Source: a virus. Taken from it: a DNA stretch of 34,507 bases. This document shows positions 3,553 to 34,507 of this stretch, piece by piece. Each line of letters opens with the position of its first letter. Position 1 is the stretch's first letter. The notes under the pieces are model-generated. The model worked only from the letters and a program-made list of their open reading frames with translations, had not been told where the DNA came from and searched no databases. Made by a program: the position numbers and the translations under genes. The DNA lies in IMG/VR virus record IMGVR_UViG_3300028595_000037, positions 1 to 34,507 of that record, one strand, 5' to 3'.

Positions 3553-3817
3553 TCACCGCCAGAATAGAAAAATAACCATGGCAAATCTATCCAATATATT
3601 CCCATAACAATACTCTATATATTATACTTAATTACAGCCAGCAAAAAGATCACCGCCAAATCTAAAACTCAAACAGCAAACATTTTGTACGATAACAATA
3701 AATAACACTCAAACCCGTTCCTTAACTCTTTCCCTAAGCTACGTAGTGCCATTCTATAAACTGTCCTAATGGTTTTATACCCTGCTTTTCACCGCATTTT
3801 CAAATGCTTTCACCGCC
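3553..3817 (+). repeat. Cluster of TCACCG motifs in non-coding DNA
   Basis: Four same-strand copies occur here: 3553-3560 (TTTCACCGCCAGAAT context), 3650-3657, 3789-3794 (followed by CA) and 3810-3817 (TTTCACCGCCAAAAT). A looser copy is at 2890. The same motif is spread over the whole genome almost only on this strand (see findings). Its density here and the extended A/T-rich flank suggest a protein-binding site near the origin. Confidence 0.6.
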
Positions 3818-3884
3818 AAAATATAACTCCCCATTACAAAACATAAAAAAAATAAACTTTTTTACATTTTTTTCTTTTTTATTG

Positions 3885-3913
3885 TTGACAAATAATATTT
3901 ATATAGATATATT
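3885..3913 (+). promoter_or_regulatory. Rightward early promoter
   Basis: TTGACA (3885-3890), a 17-bp spacer and TATATT (3908-3913) make a near-consensus sigma70 promoter. The AGGAGG ribosome-binding site and ATG of the LRR gene follow at 3949. This is the probable main promoter of the rightward early unit and explains immediate transcription by host polymerase. Confidence 0.75.
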
Positions 3914-3948
3914 ATATTTATATTGATCAAACAAAAGGAGGAAACAAA

Positions 3949-4446
3949 ATGAAAGAATTACAAAAATGGTTAAAAGACTTAAACAAAGACTACACTTTAG
4001 AAGAGTTAGAAAATCTTAAAGATTTAGATTTAACCGATAATCAATTAAAAGAATTTCCAAAAGAAATTACTAATCTTGAAAATCTTGAATGGTTAAGTTT
4101 ATCCGATAATCAACTAAAAGAAATTCCAAAAGAAATTACTAATCTTGAAAATCTTAAATATTTAGATTTAACCGATAATCAACTAAAAGAATTTCCAAAA
4201 GAAATAAAAAATCTTGAAAATCTCAAATATTTAGTTTTAAGCTGTAATCAATTAAAAGAAATTCCAAAAGAAATTACTAATCTTAAAAATCTTAAATATT
4301 TATATTTATGTAATAACAATTTGTCAAAATTCCCAAAAGAAATTACTCATCTTGAAAATCTTGAATTTTTAAATTTAAAAGATAATAAAATAAAAGAAAT
4401 TCCAGAAGAAATTACTCATCTTGAAAATCTTAAAATTATATTTTAA
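3949..4446 (+). CDS. Leucine-rich-repeat protein
   Basis: A 165-residue protein made almost wholly of 23-residue leucine-rich repeats. It has a short N-terminal stretch (MKELQKWLKDLNKDY), then about six or seven units of the type LxxLxLxxNxLKEIPKEITNL. LRR proteins form curved solenoids used for protein binding; no enzymatic domain and no signal peptide are visible, so it should act in the cytoplasm. The start is set by an AGGAGG about 8 bases upstream. It is the first gene after the main early promoter, so it is probably made at once on infection. The repeats are also near-identical at the DNA level, which implies recent expansion or recombination. The target is unknown; inhibition or decoying of a host protein is a plausible inference. 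Confidence 0.85.
   Translation: MKELQKWLKDLNKDYTLEELENLKDLDLTDNQLKEFPKEITNLENLEWLSLSDNQLKEIPKEITNLENLKYLDLTDNQLKEFPKEIKNLENLKYLVLSCNQLKEIPKEITNLKNLKYLYLCNNNLSKFPKEITHLENLEFLNLKDNKIKEIPEEITHLENLKIIF
4018..4440 (+). repeat. 69-bp tandem DNA repeats inside the LRR gene
   Basis: Units of about 69 bp are strongly conserved in DNA, recognisable by recurring CCAAAAGAAATTACT, AATCTTGAAAATCTT and GATAATCAACTAAAAGAA blocks. They encode the 23-residue LRRs. The high DNA identity makes copy-number change by recombination likely. Confidence 0.8.
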
Positions 4447-13138: not shown

Positions 13139-13729
13139 ATGAAATCAAATGAAACAGCTTTAATTTTAATAGGATATCAAAATGATTATTTTGATAAAGA
13201 CGGAATCTTACACTCTATAATCGAAGGACAATCAGATGGAGTATTAAAAAACACAATGAAACTAATAGAAGATCTTCCAAAAGATATGCTTATAGTTTCC
13301 ACCCCAATTATATTTTCTGAAGATTATCACGAACTTGTTAACCCAATAGGAATTTTAAAAACAATTCAAGATGTTGGAGCTTTCAAAAATAACTCCAAAG
13401 GATCTAAAAACATTAAAGAAATTGAAGAAGCTGGAGATAGAATATTAGAAATAAAAGGAAAACAAAGCTTCAACGCTTTCTTAAACACTAAACTTGATGA
13501 TATATTAAAAGAAAATAATATTAAAAATGTACTTATCGCTGGAGCTATCACTTCTATCTGTATAGATTCTACAGGAAGAGCGGCATCAGAAAAAGGATAT
13601 AAAACAACTATACTTTCTGATTGTACTTGTGGAAAAACTTTCTTTGAGCAAGAATATTATTGTGATAATATATTCCCAACTTATGCAATAATGAAAACAA
13701 CCAAAGATATATTAAAAGAAATGGAATAA
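13139..13729 (+). CDS. Isochorismatase-family cysteine hydrolase
   Basis: A 196-residue alpha/beta hydrolase of the isochorismatase/nicotinamidase superfamily. The catalytic Cys lies in AGAITSICIDSTGRAASEKG (about residue 140), followed by YKTTILSDCTCG; the Lys region is LEIKGKQSFNAF (about residues 105-108). The first motif reads ALILIGYQNDYFDKDG, so Gly12 stands where the usual catalytic Asp of the I-D-x-Q-x-D-F motif sits. The enzyme is therefore either of an atypical subgroup or altered in activity. Possible substrates include nicotinamide-like amides; the sequence does not decide. It has its own promoter and a good ribosome-binding site. A role in NAD metabolism during infection is inference. 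Confidence 0.8.
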   Translation: MKSNETALILIGYQNDYFDKDGILHSIIEGQSDGVLKNTMKLIEDLPKDMLIVSTPIIFSEDYHELVNPIGILKTIQDVGAFKNNSKGSKNIKEIEEAGDRILEIKGKQSFNAFLNTKLDDILKENNIKNVLIAGAITSICIDSTGRAASEKGYKTTILSDCTCGKTFFEQEYYCDNIFPTYAIMKTTKDILKEME

Positions 13730-14911: not shown

Positions 14912-15301
14912 TCAATCACTAAGAAAATGATAAGCAGCAGCACCAACGCCAATCCCAACAATAGATGCCCCCACATAATATTGCCAATTACTAGACTCAT
15001 GGACTTTAATCTTAGCAGTAGTTGACCATTCTCGCTCACAAAGACCAGCATTCACCTTCAACATAAAAGGATCTTCTGGCATTTGAAAGACTGACAAGGA
15101 TGGCTTGGATGTATAAAAGCAAGTTAAGGCAGCGTTTTTTTCATTCACTGCCATTTTGCTTACATTTTTCTCAACTTTCTTCCAAACTATCTTTTCCTGA
15201 GTAACAGTCACAGTCTCTGGTGATTTAGTAAATCTACCAACAGCAAACCCACCGCCGAAAATAAAAATAACCAATAATATTATAGCAATTGTCCTATTCA
15301 T
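14912..15301 (-). CDS. Membrane protein of the lysis cassette (spanin candidate)
   Basis: A 129-residue protein with an N-terminal membrane helix (TIAIILLVIFIFGGGFAVGR, residues 4-23), a soluble middle, and a second hydrophobic helix near the C-terminus (YYVGASIVGIGVGAAAYHFL). It is the last gene of the leftward unit, at the usual place of spanins (Rz). Rz-type inner-membrane spanins have one N-terminal helix and a coiled coil; the second helix makes this atypical and closer to a one-protein spanin in outline. The middle has two cysteines that could form a disulfide. Role by position only. Confidence 0.55.
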   Translation of the reverse strand: MNRTIAIILLVIFIFGGGFAVGRFTKSPETVTVTQEKIVWKKVEKNVSKMAVNEKNAALTCFYTSKPSLSVFQMPEDPFMLKVNAGLCEREWSTTAKIKVHESSNWQYYVGASIVGIGVGAAAYHFLSD

Positions 15302-15510
15302 TAAGGTGTCTTGTCCAACTTCTTTTTAAATGTATACTGCAAGAATCCACCACCAGTCAAACCAGCGACAAATACATATAGCTCAGATTGTAGTTGTTTG
15401 CCAAACCAATTAGAAATAGTAGCAACAATAAACATAGCTATAGCCATAGCAAAAAAACCAAAGTTCATAAACTTTGTACTTGAAAATTTACCTTTCTCAT
15501 CTTTAAACAT
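15301..15510 (-). CDS. Small two-helix membrane protein (second holin-like)
   Basis: A 69-residue protein starting MFKDEKGKFSSTKFMNFGFF. Two membrane helices follow (MNFGFFAMAIAMFIVATISN and LYVFVAGLTGGGFLQYTF), then a basic tail. I chose the ATG at 15510 because GAGGAGG lies 7 bases upstream; a longer frame from 15525 would use that ribosome-binding site as coding. Such proteins are annotated as class II-like holins or holin antagonists in phages. Its start overlaps the end of the endolysin gene. With the true holin candidate at 16829-17125 it gives the cassette two channel-like proteins. Confidence 0.65.
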   Translation of the reverse strand: MFKDEKGKFSSTKFMNFGFFAMAIAMFIVATISNWFGKQLQSELYVFVAGLTGGGFLQYTFKKKLDKTP

Positions 15511-15973
15511 AAAAAACCTCCTCATCTTTTATTGTTATAAAAACTTTTTTCTTCTCTAACTTTTCAGCTATTTTAGGATAAATATATTTATAAGCTAATT
15601 GTGAAGACTCTATAACCCCATCTTCTAAATTATTGTTGTTAGCTTTGTTTCCAACCAACAGACACCCTTCAGTATTATCATCAGTATTCCCACAGTGAAT
15701 AAGCACATACTCAAAATTAGGAATGTTAGCAATATGCAACATCCCTCTATGAATTTCTTTAAACTTAACCTTATATTTCTCATGAAACCCACCTTCAGAT
15801 CTAAATTTAACCTCATAAGTTCCTGCTGGAATCCTAGTCTCACCCTTAATCTTGACATCTCTTTTTTCGTCTTCCAAAACATAACAAGCAAACTCACCGC
15901 CAACAAACAATAATCCTAAAGTAGACTCCCCATTATCAGAATAACGATATAATTTTATAAATGAAGGTTTCAT
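15503..15973 (-). CDS. Putative endolysin (DUF5675 family)
   Basis: A 156-residue protein, MKPSFIKLYRYSDNGESTLG, with LEDEKRDVKIKGETRIPAGT, LIHCGNTDDNTEGCLLVGNK and a C-terminal SSQLAYKYIYPKI. These are the signatures of DUF5675 proteins, which recur in phage lysis cassettes and recall the H-x(n)-C layout of L,D-transpeptidase-type domains; cell-wall activity is inferred. I prefer the ATG at 15973, which has GAAAGGGG upstream, over the in-frame ATG at 16048, which has no ribosome-binding site and would overlap the PAS gene. There is no signal peptide, so export would need a holin. Confidence 0.75.
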   Translation of the reverse strand: MKPSFIKLYRYSDNGESTLGLLFVGGEFACYVLEDEKRDVKIKGETRIPAGTYEVKFRSEGGFHEKYKVKFKEIHRGMLHIANIPNFEYVLIHCGNTDDNTEGCLLVGNKANNNNLEDGVIESSQLAYKYIYPKIAEKLEKKKVFITIKDEEVFYV

Positions 15974-16040: not shown

Positions 16041-16832
16041 TTAAACATAATTTTTTTTATGAGTTAAAATTTTACTATTTTCACCGTTAAAGTGAAATTT
16101 ATTCACATGCCTTTCTAGCATCAATTCAAATTCAGCCCATTGTTTATTTGTGTAATAATCATAAATAGCTCTATGCTCTTTTACATCTTCAGTAATATCA
16201 CGTCCAACGCCAGCAGTCCCAAACAGCTTTCCTTTCTTGTCATACAATGGCACTTTATATGCTAATAAATATAAAGGTTTCCCGTCAATAACAAAATCTT
16301 CTACAAACATACAAGCTTTGCCTTCAGTTTTAACAATATCATCACTTATAGAGCATATCGCTCCAGCTTTATATTTTATGCCTTTCTCCAATATATTCTC
16401 TGTTATTTCTTTTATATCTTTTCTGTATATATCCCTTTTGTTTTTTGACAATAATAACTTTTCCCTACAAGCTTTATTGGTTTTAACAAACCTATTCTTC
16501 ACATCTTTTTCCCAAATTAAATCAGGCAAAGCATCCATAATATCAATTTCTTTTTTATTTAAAGCCTCAATTTTTTCAAAAAAAGCTAAGCCCTCCCTCT
16601 TATAGAGAAGGACCATAAAATAAAGAAAGAAAATATAAATAACTTCAATAGTAAGCGAATCAGTTAATTCAAAAAACCCTAAAAAACCATATATAAAAAG
16701 AATGCTGAAAACTACAGACAACTTCATTTTTAAATGCTTGTTTCTTTTGCTTAACCAAGTAGAAATCAGCAAATAAACTCCCAAAGACATCTCCATGACA
16801 CTAATAAAATTCATTATTAAAGCATCATTCAT
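16041..16832 (-). CDS. Membrane-bound PAS-domain sensor protein
   Basis: A 263-residue protein. The first 80 residues contain about three membrane helices (SVMEMSLGVYLLISTWL, LSVVFSILFIYGFLGFF and VIYIFFLYFMVLLYK). From about residue 95 a PAS domain begins: DALPDLIWEKDVKNRFVKTN is the usual start and PLYDKKGKLFGTAGVGRDIT the usual last strands. No kinase, GGDEF or HTH domain follows; the C-terminus is a short helix-rich tail (NKQWAEFELMLERHVNKFHF). PAS domains sense ligands, redox state or light and signal by dimerisation. Its start overlaps the holin stop (ATGA), and it lies directly upstream of the endolysin, so it is made with the lysis proteins. Tuning of lysis by a host signal is inference. 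Confidence 0.85.
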   Translation of the reverse strand: MNDALIMNFISVMEMSLGVYLLISTWLSKRNKHLKMKLSVVFSILFIYGFLGFFELTDSLTIEVIYIFFLYFMVLLYKREGLAFFEKIEALNKKEIDIMDALPDLIWEKDVKNRFVKTNKACREKLLLSKNKRDIYRKDIKEITENILEKGIKYKAGAICSISDDIVKTEGKACMFVEDFVIDGKPLYLLAYKVPLYDKKGKLFGTAGVGRDITEDVKEHRAIYDYYTNKQWAEFELMLERHVNKFHFNGENSKILTHKKNYV

Positions 16833-17125
16833 AGTTTCTCCCCTTTCTTCTCAGCATACTTGAGAGTATATTTTTTAATAATAAGCAATAAATTTTTCCC
16901 TCCAAGACCAGCCACCCCACAAAGTATAGAGGTCATATTTTTGCTGTATCCTAATTCTTGGCAAAAATGAAATGTTAAAAAACCTGCAAAACCAGCAGTA
17001 AAAAGAGAAACAATTAAATCAAACCAACTATGCTTTTCATCCATCAAAAACCCCGAAAATCCTCCACAAGCTGCAATCACTATTGCTAATAAAAGTTCCG
17101 GTATTTTCACTATAATTCCCCACAT
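16829..17125 (-). CDS. Holin
   Basis: A 98-residue protein with three predicted membrane helices: LLLAIVIAACGGFSGFLM, IVSLFTAGFAGFLTFHFC and SILCGVAGLGGKNLLLII, followed by a charged, lysine-rich tail. Size, topology and the G-rich last helix followed by KN/K residues match the LydA-like holin superfamily. It would form inner-membrane holes that release the endolysin. It starts the lysis cassette, 14 bases after an ATP-grasp-like gene, and overlaps the PAS gene by four bases. Confidence 0.8.
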   Translation of the reverse strand: MWGIIVKIPELLLAIVIAACGGFSGFLMDEKHSWFDLIVSLFTAGFAGFLTFHFCQELGYSKNMTSILCGVAGLGGKNLLLIIKKYTLKYAEKKGEKL

Positions 17126-29762: not shown

Positions 29763-32700
29763 TTAAATTATCCTCAAAAATTTCTTTATCTTAGCTAAAA
29801 CATCTCCAGTTTGAGCTTCTGAATATGTTAGAATATCTTTTTTCTTATTACTTTCAGTATCATCTGCAAATATAATATCCTGCTCATCACCGCTAGCCAC
29901 ATTCTTTATTATATCACTATAACCAACGTCATTAGCTGCTGTCTTGCCTGAATTAAACCAAAAATCTTTATTGCAAGTTATGTCTGCTTGAATTAAAGCT
30001 GGTGCGAATGGTTGGCTAAGTTCTGTTTCTGCGTTATTGTGATAATTACCTGCTTGATTAGAAATATCTCTGCCTAAAGCATCTGTTGTGCCATCGATTA
30101 ATGCTGGTACTCTTATTAATTCTGGTGATCCATTAACTGTTCCATCATGTGAGTTGGCTGTTTGATCTACCCAGTCAGCATCTGTATTGCCATATCCATT
30201 TAAAGAAACCTTCAATTTAGTTCCATCAGAAATTTCAGACCCATCTTTAACAGCTGCTATGTCGCCAGCCGTTAGAGTTCCTTTTGTTATTCTAAAGTTT
30301 GATATAACTCCTAGATAAGGAGTTGATGCCCCGTCAGCTCGTATCCCTACATTTACATTGCCGTTAATTGCTGGAGCTGATCCTTGAGCTCCGCTAACCT
30401 TAGAAACTCCATCAACGTAAATAGTCGTAGTTCCTGACTCTCTTATTGCTGCAATATGGTATTTGACACCATCAGACATATTATGAAAGTCTGAAAATGT
30501 TGTTGAACCATCCATTATAAAGCGTAGTTTTAGCCCATCTTGATCAATTTGCATAAGACCAGACGCTAAACTGAACCCCACCAATGTATATGAAGACCCT
30601 ATTGCTTCTGGAATAACATCCATGTCTATACTAAAGTCCCCAGTTCCAAAATCCCAGTCATCAGAATCTGCCATAGATACATAGTTATTTGAGCCATCAA
30701 AAGACATCCTTCCAGAAAAACCACTTACAATATTATAATGCGACTTATCTTGTAAAGTTCCCCAGAAAGTAGCGAGTGTTGCGTTTGTGATTATCCCGTG
30801 GTTGTCATTCCCTGAAACATCATAAGCACTAATGCCTGCTCCTTCTGAAAGCGGAACAGCTAATAATAAATCATCGGTTTCACCATCTTTTATCTCGGCA
30901 TCTGTTTTTATAGCATTATAAATTTTCACATCAGAAATACTTCCTTCAAAATAATTTGTTGCTGATGATCCCTCTCTGCCAATAGCAAATTCATAAGAAC
31001 TTCCTGAAAATCCACCATCTATTGAGCCAACAGTTGCCTCTGTTAATGATTTTTCTACTCCATCAATCCATACCCTAAAAACTCCTGATGCTCCAGTGTA
31101 ATCAATAGAAGCTGTCACATCATACCATTTGCTTCCATCTACTATTAATACTTCATCTACATAATTGTATGTATAATTTGAACCGTCTAAACCAGCCCAC
31201 ACGAAAAACTTGCTACTAACCACACCATAGTAAAAATTTCTAATAGAACCATTACTTTGTTCTAAAATCTTTCCTTGAACTGCGGAAGCATTAAATTTAC
31301 AATTAAACGTCAAAGCATTTGCTGTTGCCACGAGAGGAGCACCATAAGATATATAATCATCAGTACCATCAAAAGTAGCACAATTAGAATTAACTAACTC
31401 AGCATTATATTTAACTCTTCCTGAATAGTTCAAAGCGTTTCCAAGAACATCTTTTGTTGGATCACTTTCATCTCGTGGAAAATATAGATAGCTTGCAGCT
31501 GCTGTCCATGTACCATCATTATCATTTCCTGAAATATCTGGCGAGGTAGAAGCTGTACTGTCTATTTCATATTGCCCAACAAGCCCTGTCGGCACAGCTC
31601 CTCCCCCATATATAGTAGTTATATCTGCTGATGATAATTCAGTATTATATACCCTAACGTCTTTAATTGATCCTGCAAAAAGATTCCCTATTTGAACACC
31701 TGTTGCTGCTGCTGGAATAGTTAAGCTCATTCCTGTTTCTGGCGTTCCAACTTCTGCACCATCAAGATATAACTTGCCAGTCCAAGTGCCACTTTTGTTT
31801 AAGGTAAACGCTACATGATGCCATTCTGCTGTATCGGTAAAGGCTGTAAAGACTTTTCCTTGCTGTCCCCCGTTAGCTGCATCATAAACATTTAATTCTA
31901 CAGTATCTGATCTAACATCTAATCTTACTTCTGGCGAATCGGGAGTTTTATAAAAATTAAACAATCTGTTCGATCCGTCAGTGTTATCTGCTTTAAACCA
32001 ACAAGTAACCGACATAGCGGTCGCACTTGCAAGAATATCTGTCGGCAAAGCTATATAATATACTCCATCAAAATAAACATTTTGGTTATATCCGACTTGA
32101 TTCTGAAAAGAATACTCTTTTTGTGTTGCGTGGAAGGTTGAAAGAGTTGCATTAGTTATTGCCCCGTGACTTGCATTTCCACTTGAATCGTAGGCTATCG
32201 TTCCTGACTGCTCATCACATTTATAAAATAAAGTTGAGCCAGTTGGATATTCATGGTTTTGGATTGCTGCTATTTCTGCCGAACTTAACACTTTAGGATA
32301 TATAGCGAAACTATCCATGTTACCGCCGTACAATGACCCAGCCGAACCATTGATATTTCTTGCGGCAAGGAATAAATTAAAAGCGTTTGATACAATACCG
32401 TCTATTGTCCCACCTGTTCTCGCCCATGAAACAGGTGATCCATCTACATAAAGTTTTACATGATCAGATGAACTTAAATCTCCATCATTTGTAATTATTA
32501 CGTTATGGTAAGTATTATTTGAAATGGGAGCACTTGAAGTTGTGAATATAGCTGTTTTTCCTGCATCAGTATTTTGATACATTGCGAAGATAAAGTTCCC
32601 CAAATAAAGCTGTAATAAAAAAGCTGTTTTTGTTGTAACTGTATCTTGACATCCAAATAATCTCTGATCAGCTGCGACATCTGCTGATTGCATATTAAAC

Positions 32701-32957
32701 GTAATGCTAAAAGGATCGTTATACGCTTCAAGCCCTAATTGAGAAATAGTCTTTCCTGTGTCTAAATAGTCATTAACTTTATCAAACAAATAACATCTTC
32801 CTTGCTGAATAGATCTTGTTTGATCTCCACTCCTATCTGCCAAGACAGTCTCACCGTCAAAAGTAGTGGTGATTCCGCCTTGCTTAGGAAATAAATGCTG
32901 GGCTAAATTCTTCTTAGGGAATCCAGATCTTGCGACTAATTTGTCAAAAATTTTCAC
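29763..32957 (-). CDS. LamG-repeat adhesin (tail-spike or head-fibre candidate)
   Basis: A 1064-residue protein with four concanavalin/LamG-type jelly-roll domains at about residues 55-230, 295-445, 518-690 and 748-890. Each has HNVIITND, HHVAFTLNKSG or YDVTASIDYTG-like strands followed by K-L-Y-x-D-G or a variant, and ends in a D-x-x-I-Y motif. The linkers repeat a module, CDEQSGTIAYDSSGNASHG, EGAGISAYDVSGNDNHG and STSPDISGNDNDG. LamG folds bind sugars or glycans with calcium. The N-terminus (MKIFDKLVARSGFPKKNLAQ) is probably the virion anchor. It is the probable receptor-binding adhesin, although it is encoded in the portal-scaffold interval rather than with the tail genes. It overlaps the next upstream gene by one base. 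Confidence 0.8.
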   Translation of the reverse strand: MKIFDKLVARSGFPKKNLAQHLFPKQGGITTTFDGETVLADRSGDQTRSIQQGRCYLFDKVNDYLDTGKTISQLGLEAYNDPFSITFNMQSADVAADQRLFGCQDTVTTKTAFLLQLYLGNFIFAMYQNTDAGKTAIFTTSSAPISNNTYHNVIITNDGDLSSSDHVKLYVDGSPVSWARTGGTIDGIVSNAFNLFLAARNINGSAGSLYGGNMDSFAIYPKVLSSAEIAAIQNHEYPTGSTLFYKCDEQSGTIAYDSSGNASHGAITNATLSTFHATQKEYSFQNQVGYNQNVYFDGVYYIALPTDILASATAMSVTCWFKADNTDGSNRLFNFYKTPDSPEVRLDVRSDTVELNVYDAANGGQQGKVFTAFTDTAEWHHVAFTLNKSGTWTGKLYLDGAEVGTPETGMSLTIPAAATGVQIGNLFAGSIKDVRVYNTELSSADITTIYGGGAVPTGLVGQYEIDSTASTSPDISGNDNDGTWTAAASYLYFPRDESDPTKDVLGNALNYSGRVKYNAELVNSNCATFDGTDDYISYGAPLVATANALTFNCKFNASAVQGKILEQSNGSIRNFYYGVVSSKFFVWAGLDGSNYTYNYVDEVLIVDGSKWYDVTASIDYTGASGVFRVWIDGVEKSLTEATVGSIDGGFSGSSYEFAIGREGSSATNYFEGSISDVKIYNAIKTDAEIKDGETDDLLLAVPLSEGAGISAYDVSGNDNHGIITNATLATFWGTLQDKSHYNIVSGFSGRMSFDGSNNYVSMADSDDWDFGTGDFSIDMDVIPEAIGSSYTLVGFSLASGLMQIDQDGLKLRFIMDGSTTFSDFHNMSDGVKYHIAAIRESGTTTIYVDGVSKVSGAQGSAPAINGNVNVGIRADGASTPYLGVISNFRITKGTLTAGDIAAVKDGSEISDGTKLKVSLNGYGNTDADWVDQTANSHDGTVNGSPELIRVPALIDGTTDALGRDISNQAGNYHNNAETELSQPFAPALIQADITCNKDFWFNSGKTAANDVGYSDIIKNVASGDEQDIIFADDTESNKKKDILTYSEAQTGDVLAKIKKFLRII

Positions 32958-33308: not shown

Positions 33309-33695
33309 TCAACTAACCCTCCTTATCTTATACTTTTCTTGAATTACCCCTTTTTCAATTTTACTCTCAGGATTGCTATCCTGCTTCTTACTTCCCTCAA
33401 CTTTATTAGGAAATAATCCAAATTGAATAGCTGCAAAAAATTTATACAAATCACGGTCAAAATCCTTGTCTTTCTCCCAAATCTTCTGCCTTCCTCTCTC
33501 AATAAAATTTGCAAAACTATCAATTTCTCGCTTTTCAAAAGCTTCTCTATACTCTTCATAATCTCTCATAAACCTTTGATGAACTCTAATAGTCACCCCA
33601 AGTCTACGCAAAGTTTCAGTCTTTGTTAAACTATTCTGACCACTCTCAAATAAAATACCTTTCCAATCTTTTGGCAAATCTTTAAGCTGTTTCAT
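33309..33695 (-). CDS. Probable terminase small subunit
   Basis: A 128-residue protein, MKQLKDLPKDWKGILFESGQ. It has an HTH-like start (NSLTKTETLRRLGVTIRVHQ), then MRDYEEYREAFEKREIDSFA, NFIERGRQKIWEKDKDF and FAAIQFGLFPNKVEGS. This order, HTH, a D/P-E-F-x-x-A-hel, a G-R/W-E stretch and a final F/G-x-F-P, is the layout of phage TerS proteins. TerS recognises the packaging site and feeds DNA to TerL. Its place after the portal, not before TerL, is unusual. It overlaps the portal stop by 14 bases. Confidence is moderate. Confidence 0.5.
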   Translation of the reverse strand: MKQLKDLPKDWKGILFESGQNSLTKTETLRRLGVTIRVHQRFMRDYEEYREAFEKREIDSFANFIERGRQKIWEKDKDFDRDLYKFFAAIQFGLFPNKVEGSKKQDSNPESKIEKGVIQEKYKIRRVS

Positions 33696-34507
33696 TTCTT
33701 GTCCCCATTAAATCTATGTTGGCATCAACTAGCTTAGTTTGCAACACCTTCATCTCTTTCTGATGCTCCATCTGCTTCATCCTTAAATCAGCTTCAATCT
33801 TCAATTTATCTAATTGCAATTTCTCCAGCTCCAATTTCTCTTTACTCGCTACTTTCATCTGCTCAACCTGTAAGCTTTGTTGCAATCTTTGTTGCTCAAC
33901 CTGTAATCTTTGAGCTTCCATCTGTCTAGACTGCTCTTCAATCTTCCTAAGCTTATCCTTTTCAGTCTTGTTGATGTCACTTAACTCCAAAATCAATCCA
34001 GCAGGGATCTGCCCACCGCTTTGCTGATATTGAGTCAACGCAATTAAACTAGCCATACGACTAGTCTGACTATAAGCACCCTCAATGACTTCACAATTAT
34101 ATTTAAAAGTATCTCTTAAAAAATCAAAATTATTTGGAAATGGAAAATTTCTACCTAAAATTTTTCTAAACTTAACCTCAGTAAAATTTTGAAGCATTAA
34201 ATCTAACACAAATTCACATACATCTTTCAATGCATCTTTATAGTTATCACTTAATTCCTCTAAAGCTACTATAGCTTGTTTCTGTCTCAATTGAACAGTT
34301 ATTCCAGCAGTCTGTTGCCCCATATCAGTACCTTGCATATACTGATTCACACCGATTAAATTCATATCCTGATCTAAAGTACTCTCGGATTGAATTAATC
34401 CCATATCTACACTAGGAGGCTCTTTACGCTGTATCAATCTATTGGGATTCTTCTCTGTAACTCGCTTATCTAAATTCTTAATGTCATCAACTGCTCCCTT
34501 CTCAACA
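33682..34507 (-). CDS. Portal protein, C-terminal part (P22-type), enters from the window end
   Basis: This is the second part of the portal gene that begins at 1094. The frame is open from the window end through VEKGAVDDIKNLDKRV, matching the left copy, and continues LIQRKEPPSVDMGLIQSEST, QDMNLIGVNQYMQGTDMGQ and a long charged helix (EEQSRQMEAQRLQVEQQRLQ), the C-terminal barrel-like helix of portals. The TTG at 34437 is internal and not a real start. The C-terminus ends LMGTRNETA and overlaps the probable TerS gene by 14 bases. Confidence 0.85.
   Translation of the reverse strand, partial: VEKGAVDDIKNLDKRVTEKNPNRLIQRKEPPSVDMGLIQSESTLDQDMNLIGVNQYMQGTDMGQQTAGITVQLRQKQAIVALEELSDNYKDALKDVCEFVLDLMLQNFTEVKFRKILGRNFPFPNNFDFLRDTFKYNCEVIEGAYSQTSRMASLIALTQYQQSGGQIPAGLILELSDINKTEKDKLRKIEEQSRQMEAQRLQVEQQRLQQSLQVEQMKVASKEKLELEKLQLDKLKIEADLRMKQMEHQKEMKVLQTKLVDANIDLMGTRNETA
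34442..34507. repeat. Right copy of diverged terminal overlap
   Basis: The partner of 1-66, with 58 of 66 bases identical and no gaps. Differences include gat/gac for Asp and tta/att for Leu/Ile, so the coding meaning is kept. See the left copy. Confidence 0.85.

Follow-up and report, generated by a model that had tools for sequence, protein, structure and literature searches.

The window, the whole 34,507-base stretch of viral DNA analysed here, is apparently a complete circular genome, since a P22-type portal gene split by its two ends (3-1094 and 33682-34506), which share no repeat, reads as one 639-aa frame once these ends are joined. On the minus strand, genes for a 1051-aa and a 259-aa protein, for which family searches gave no useful match, are followed in order by a holin gene, a gene for a membrane-anchored PAS protein, a DUF5675 gene and genes for two small membrane proteins. 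The holin (98 aa; 16829..17125, minus strand) belongs to the Phage_holin_3_3/LydA family (PF16083, 48.2 bits, E 1.2e-12) and also matches the phrog_785 holin (E 9e-15). The PAS gene (16041..16832, minus strand) encodes 263 aa, the coordinates, strand and length being those given in the original prediction; we refer to its product as the 3TM-PAS protein. Its start overlaps the holin stop by 4 nt (ATGA), and a strong Shine-Dalgarno sequence, AAGGGGAG, lies within the holin gene (16838..16845, minus strand), 5 nt ahead of the PAS ATG. Judged from this arrangement, the 3TM-PAS gene is probably translationally coupled to the holin gene, which counts in favour of a part in lysis control. The DUF5675 protein (15503..15973, minus strand; PF18925, E 1e-28) is a probable cell-wall enzyme whose start at 15973, 67 nt past the PAS stop, is supported by a strong Shine-Dalgarno sequence, and its open reading frame can be extended to 16048. 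Overlapping starts had been described for this cassette; the overlap with the holin gene is present, whereas that with the DUF5675 gene requires an upstream ATG without a Shine-Dalgarno sequence. Similarly, the predicted placement between holin and endolysin genes is firm on the holin side, while the endolysin is represented by the DUF5675 protein, probable but not proven as such. The cassette continues with a small membrane protein (15301..15525, minus strand; weak DUF6442 match) and a 129-aa protein that is hydrophobic at both termini (14912..15301, minus strand), a possible spanin-like final gene product that had no convincing family match in Pfam and PHROG searches.

Elsewhere in the window, we found a 1064-aa protein with four laminin-G/concanavalin-like stretches (29763-32957), probably a tail fibre or host-binding protein, and, among plus-strand genes, a 196-aa protein resembling an isochorismatase-type cysteine hydrolase (13139-13729), whose phage relatives have no assigned function. 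Defence-system models gave no match in the window. Its DnaB and TerL matches in named phages were distant and scattered, and point to no one host.

The 3TM-PAS protein combines three N-terminal transmembrane helices (residues 1-78; 16599..16832, minus strand), a PAS domain (residues 100-216; 16185..16535) and a C-terminal helical pair (residues 214-246; 16095..16193), the last recognised in the AF2 model and in alignments, where its outline is common to the phage relatives described below. The PAS assignment made in the original prediction was borne out by profile search (PF08448, PAS_4; 23.6 bits against a cut-off of 23.1 over residues 100-216) and by structure, with a mean pLDDT of 87 for the AF2 model and values of 96-98 over the PAS domain. 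Foldseek returned 221 PDB matches for this model at E<=1e-3, and the best 50 were mostly PAS or LOV domains, the best matches including the BvgS PAS (1.2e-6), VqmA (2e-6) and LOV PAS domains. The predicted three-helix membrane part was likewise confirmed by hydropathy peaks, positive-inside loops and AF2 helices (3-30, 32-54 and 59-101), the last helix running continuously from TM3 into the PAS domain. Hydropathy and loop charges together predict an N-out/C-in topology with a cytosolic PAS domain. Pfam searches detected no kinase, GGDEF, HTH or other output domain in the protein, in agreement with the original prediction, and only about 47 residues lie beyond the PAS domain.

We further considered what the PAS pocket might bind. 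VqmA was the nearest solved sequence relative (E 6e-4); its DPO residue K101 aligns with K193, which is invariant in this family, but the position of F99 is not Phe. A ligand in a VqmA-like pocket is therefore plausible, and DPO itself unlikely. A canonical light (LOV) or heme sensor also appears unlikely, given that the LOV cysteine motif (NCRFLQ) is absent from the window protein and that the His of NHTFG shared by the soluble family members is replaced by Tyr in the window protein and in its closest counterpart in form (contig L140, described below). A PAS domain may also serve simply for dimerisation, a point against the reading proposed below.

To place the protein in a wider context, 2.9 million viral contigs were scanned by motif and profile. 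An exact-peptide scan using the window protein alone found no relative in this set. The general PAS motif GxGRDITE, used alone in the first scan, gave 12 stretches and opened the family: five of them hold a stand-alone PAS gene, and all five genes lie in lysis cassettes, flanked by a two-TM holin-like gene and by a one-TM gene plus an endolysin gene (contexts were read from the fetched stretch or a longer stretch of the same contig). Profile-guided scans raised the number of contigs with a stand-alone PAS relative, the window not counted, to 14 (8.8 to 111 kb), so that PAS genes are indeed present in other phage lysis cassettes. In 14 of 14 further contigs, a holin, endolysin or spanin-like gene lies at most about three genes away from the PAS gene; these nearby lysis genes comprise GH24, M15_3, M15_4/phrog_465, phrog_894, DUF5675, the PF16083 holin and weak spanin-like genes. 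With the window included, the lysis location holds in 15 of 15 contigs. The chance of such placement over seven lineages can be roughly estimated at 4e-8, which serves as a guide only, as it assumes independence of lineages and about 1.4 genes per kb; the agreement of the later scans is moreover not fully independent, because they were seeded with lysis-located members. Three relatives matched PF08448 more strongly than the window protein (47.3, 37.5 and 33.5 bits), while the members in L044 and L046 and the second copy in L131 scored just under the cut-off.

Two candidates were left out of the family: L028, a partial multi-PAS protein, and L036, which has two PAS domains and no lysis context. 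The protein of the latter (L036:7230-8522) has two PAS-like domains but no recognised output domain; the gene after it encodes a coiled-coil protein with one TM helix, and no recognised lysis genes are nearby. The 60.6-kb viral contig L131 carries two different PAS genes of the family (595-1242 and 3646-4269), reflecting either a duplication or a chimeric assembly; a spanin-like gene lies ahead of the first, and the contig contains two portal-like genes. In a tblastn search of 50,697 phage records with the window protein, two soluble relatives and the L140 protein, no match was found, which indicates that most phages do without this PAS gene. A neighbour-gene scan of viral contigs with an injection-type protein gave no result.

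Comparison of related cassettes revealed different endolysin types alongside constant PAS and membrane genes. The cassettes of L023, L033 and L026 have the PAS, holin-like and one-TM genes in common, but their endolysins are GH24, M15_3 and M15_4, respectively. Similarly, L044 and L132 share the PAS gene, a one-TM protein of 74 aa that is identical in both and a 41-aa protein that is nearly so, and these otherwise near-identical PAS cassettes differ at the endolysin place, where L044 has DUF5675 and L132 has M15_3. This replacement suggests DUF5675 proteins as phage endolysins. The DUF5675 protein of the window (also matching phrog_1501, 'unknown function') has conserved His...GC residues, and phage relatives are annotated as transpeptidases; on the basis of the exchange, these residues and the annotation of relatives, we consider DUF5675 a probable endolysin. 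DUF5675 genes were located at 15503-15973 in the window and at L038:3391-3816, L044:8774-9199 and L132:7039-7491; a structure model from three sequences gave no reliable fold (pLDDT 38). The PAS genes are under purifying selection: three pairs gave dN/dS of 0.06-0.09, similar to the values for the genes beside them. Taken together, the 15 viral contigs, the several unrelated phage backbones among them, the swapped endolysins and the strong purifying selection support the gene as a component of lysis control, which is the part of the originally proposed lysis role that can be maintained on this evidence.

The membrane-fused form of the protein was found in a second genome. In contig 3300020048_000370 (L140), which by gene order and sequence reads as a long-tailed phage (protease, capsid and a 2315-aa tape-measure-like protein), a PF16083 holin ORF overlaps a 3TM-PAS ORF. 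The L140 protein is 31% identical to the window protein over residues 9-248, the conserved transmembrane region included, and its holin is 33% identical to that of the window. The 3TM-PAS form and the PF16083 holin thus occur together in two of two genomes, one with a P22-type portal (the window) and one long-tailed (L140), and the gene adjoins the PF16083/LydA holin in both, as in a LydB-type operon; a search of ten other PAS contigs detected no PF16083 in any of them. For the soluble PAS members whose neighbour was read, the next gene usually encodes a small one-TM protein, for which no convincing family match was obtained. This one-helix membrane neighbour may supply the anchor for the soluble PAS.

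We then compared the phage proteins with their cellular relatives, which are sensor proteins, many of them from Desulfobacterota and Campylobacterota. The cellular PAS_4 proteins from these groups belong to the same subfamily as the phage PAS (about 30-40% identical) and have in common with it the motif (W/H)HTFGE-C-SD and an invariant K. In two bacterial groups, the genomes with this subfamily numbered 31 of 397 and 57 of 389. All seven cellular relatives that were scanned, including a 263-aa protein encoded close to the end of its contig, carry the same PAS together with HisKA/HATPase, GGDEF/EAL, LuxR-HTH or further PAS domains, whereas the phage forms carry none of these and group separately. 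In a tree of 113 PAS domains, a single branch separated the 14 phage proteins from the 99 cellular relatives (support 100/96, recovered in all 200 bootstrap trees), although the tree is a guide only owing to few columns and long branches, and is unrooted. A genome closely related to the window and with its lysis cassette intact was not found. Relatives with 35-44% identical TerL comprised 15 distant contigs, in which profile searches detected no PAS, PF16083 or DUF5675; being distant throughout and mostly short fragments, they are not informative.

Based on these computational findings, we propose that the 3TM-PAS gene encodes a lysis-timing regulator, a ligand-responsive, antiholin-like protein in a LydB-like position beside a LydA-type holin, a reading in which we place about even confidence. 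The protein would sit in the inner membrane by its three-helix anchor (N-out, C-in), with the PAS domain in the cytosol and joined to TM3 by the continuous helix, and would most likely associate with the neighbouring PF16083 holin. Gain or loss of a small host molecule by the PAS domain could then alter this association and shift the moment of holin triggering. We infer the holin binding, the ligand sensing, the effect on timing and the sign of that effect, that of an antiholin rather than an activator. Against this reading stands the failure of the three-helix anchor to match any antiholin or holin family in Pfam and PHROG searches. In other phages, the same PAS would act as a soluble protein, possibly with the one-helix membrane neighbour as its anchor.

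Several known systems resemble parts of this arrangement. LydB of phage P1 is a soluble antiholin encoded with LydA that delays lysis by a mechanism that is not known; it lacks TM domains, and neither a PAS domain nor a homologue with a known function has been described for it (PMC9025707). LydB and the window protein are alike in position, both being encoded with a LydA-family (PF16083) holin, and LydB shares the absence of a TM domain with the soluble PAS relatives, whereas the window protein is membrane-anchored. Like the window protein, VqmA of phage VP882 is a PAS protein encoded by a phage; it is the receptor for an autoinducer, a small molecule made by the host, and switches on the lytic program at the level of transcription, leading to lysis (PMC8284805). 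However, VqmA is a cytosolic HTH transcription factor acting on the lytic switch through qtip, outside the lysis cassette, and the window protein has no HTH. The T4 antiholins RI and RIII are presented in the cited passages as proteins with the dedicated role of adjusting holin triggering to a signal, RI being periplasmic and believed to sense superinfecting phage DNA; those passages describe neither as a PAS protein, unlike the window protein (PMC8385771, PMC11413866).

Alternatively, the protein could itself belong to the apparatus that breaks the membrane, perhaps as a second holin that uses its PAS domain for dimerisation or oligomerisation alone and senses no signal. Class I holins have three helices and an N-out/C-in topology, as predicted here, the gene sits between the holin and DUF5675 genes, and purifying selection would equally be expected. 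We nevertheless regard this explanation as unlikely: the anchor of neither the window protein nor the L140 protein matches a holin family in Pfam or PHROG, soluble versions without TM helices hold the same place in other cassettes, the window cassette already has a PF16083 holin, and the conserved residues follow a PAS subfamily that serves as sensor input in cellular proteins. The occurrence of this subfamily in sensor kinases, GGDEF/EAL proteins and LuxR-type regulators, and its presence in the two bacterial groups (31/397 and 57/389 genomes), instead raise the idea of a late host-takeover gene, whose product would pair with a host sensor PAS, as PAS domains dimerise, and jam or rewire signalling, with the lysis operon providing timing only. 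Such a function seems distinctly improbable to us, in view of the strict lysis location in unrelated genomes, the membrane anchor of the window form and the grouping of the phage PAS proteins on their own, not nested beside particular host proteins.

Control of lysis or late gene expression through an unseen output partner, rather than of the holin protein, would fit the usual behaviour of PAS regulators, which feed transcriptional or kinase output, as VP882 VqmA does (PMC8284805); for a membrane protein that has no HTH or other output domain and is encoded within the lysis operon itself, we consider this very unlikely. Finally, a passenger without a role in lysis might show the distribution seen here, the gene being missing in most phages and, according to profile searches, in the contigs of the closest TerL relatives, but a dN/dS below 0.1 and the lysis location in 15/15 contigs make this explanation extremely improbable.

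Lysis time is usually viewed as fixed by the holin allele, with the lysis inhibition of T4 and N4 as rare signal-driven cases. That many unrelated uncultured phages have a conserved PAS protein encoded among their lysis genes suggests that some phages are equipped to sense the state of the host as they lyse it. Extending the lysis-timing reading beyond the window, we tentatively suggest, at a little below even confidence, a hitherto undescribed group of lysis regulators in phages. Here, a PAS domain, either fused to three TM helices beside a LydA-type holin or soluble with a one-helix partner, would bind a host metabolite and gate the holin directly, so that the lysis clock would be set post-transcriptionally by host state. 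A literature search for a link between PAS domains and lysis timing turned up no paper that makes one. The small, soluble, well-folded PAS domains and a defined holin partner make the question of host sensing at lysis directly testable.

Leads with hosts in culture may be offered by the Cellulophaga phages phi18:3 and phi19:1, of which a 172-aa and a 240-aa protein were among the better viral fold matches in Foldseek. By protein length, as the sole CDS of those lengths found in the tables, these were identified as phi18:3 gp090 (NC_021794 39102-39620; PAS-like fold, E 8.8e-6) and phi19:1 gp108 (NC_021799 54202-54924; PAS-like fold, E 3.3e-6). Sequence profiles gave E 0.06 or worse, or no match, for the two proteins, and they were excluded from the family count, as the fold match alone spoke for them. 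The gp090 gene lies two genes upstream of an annotated endolysin (GH108) and the gp108 gene five genes upstream of an annotated lysozyme. In both phages, a multi-helix membrane protein is encoded between the PAS-like gene and the endolysin gene.
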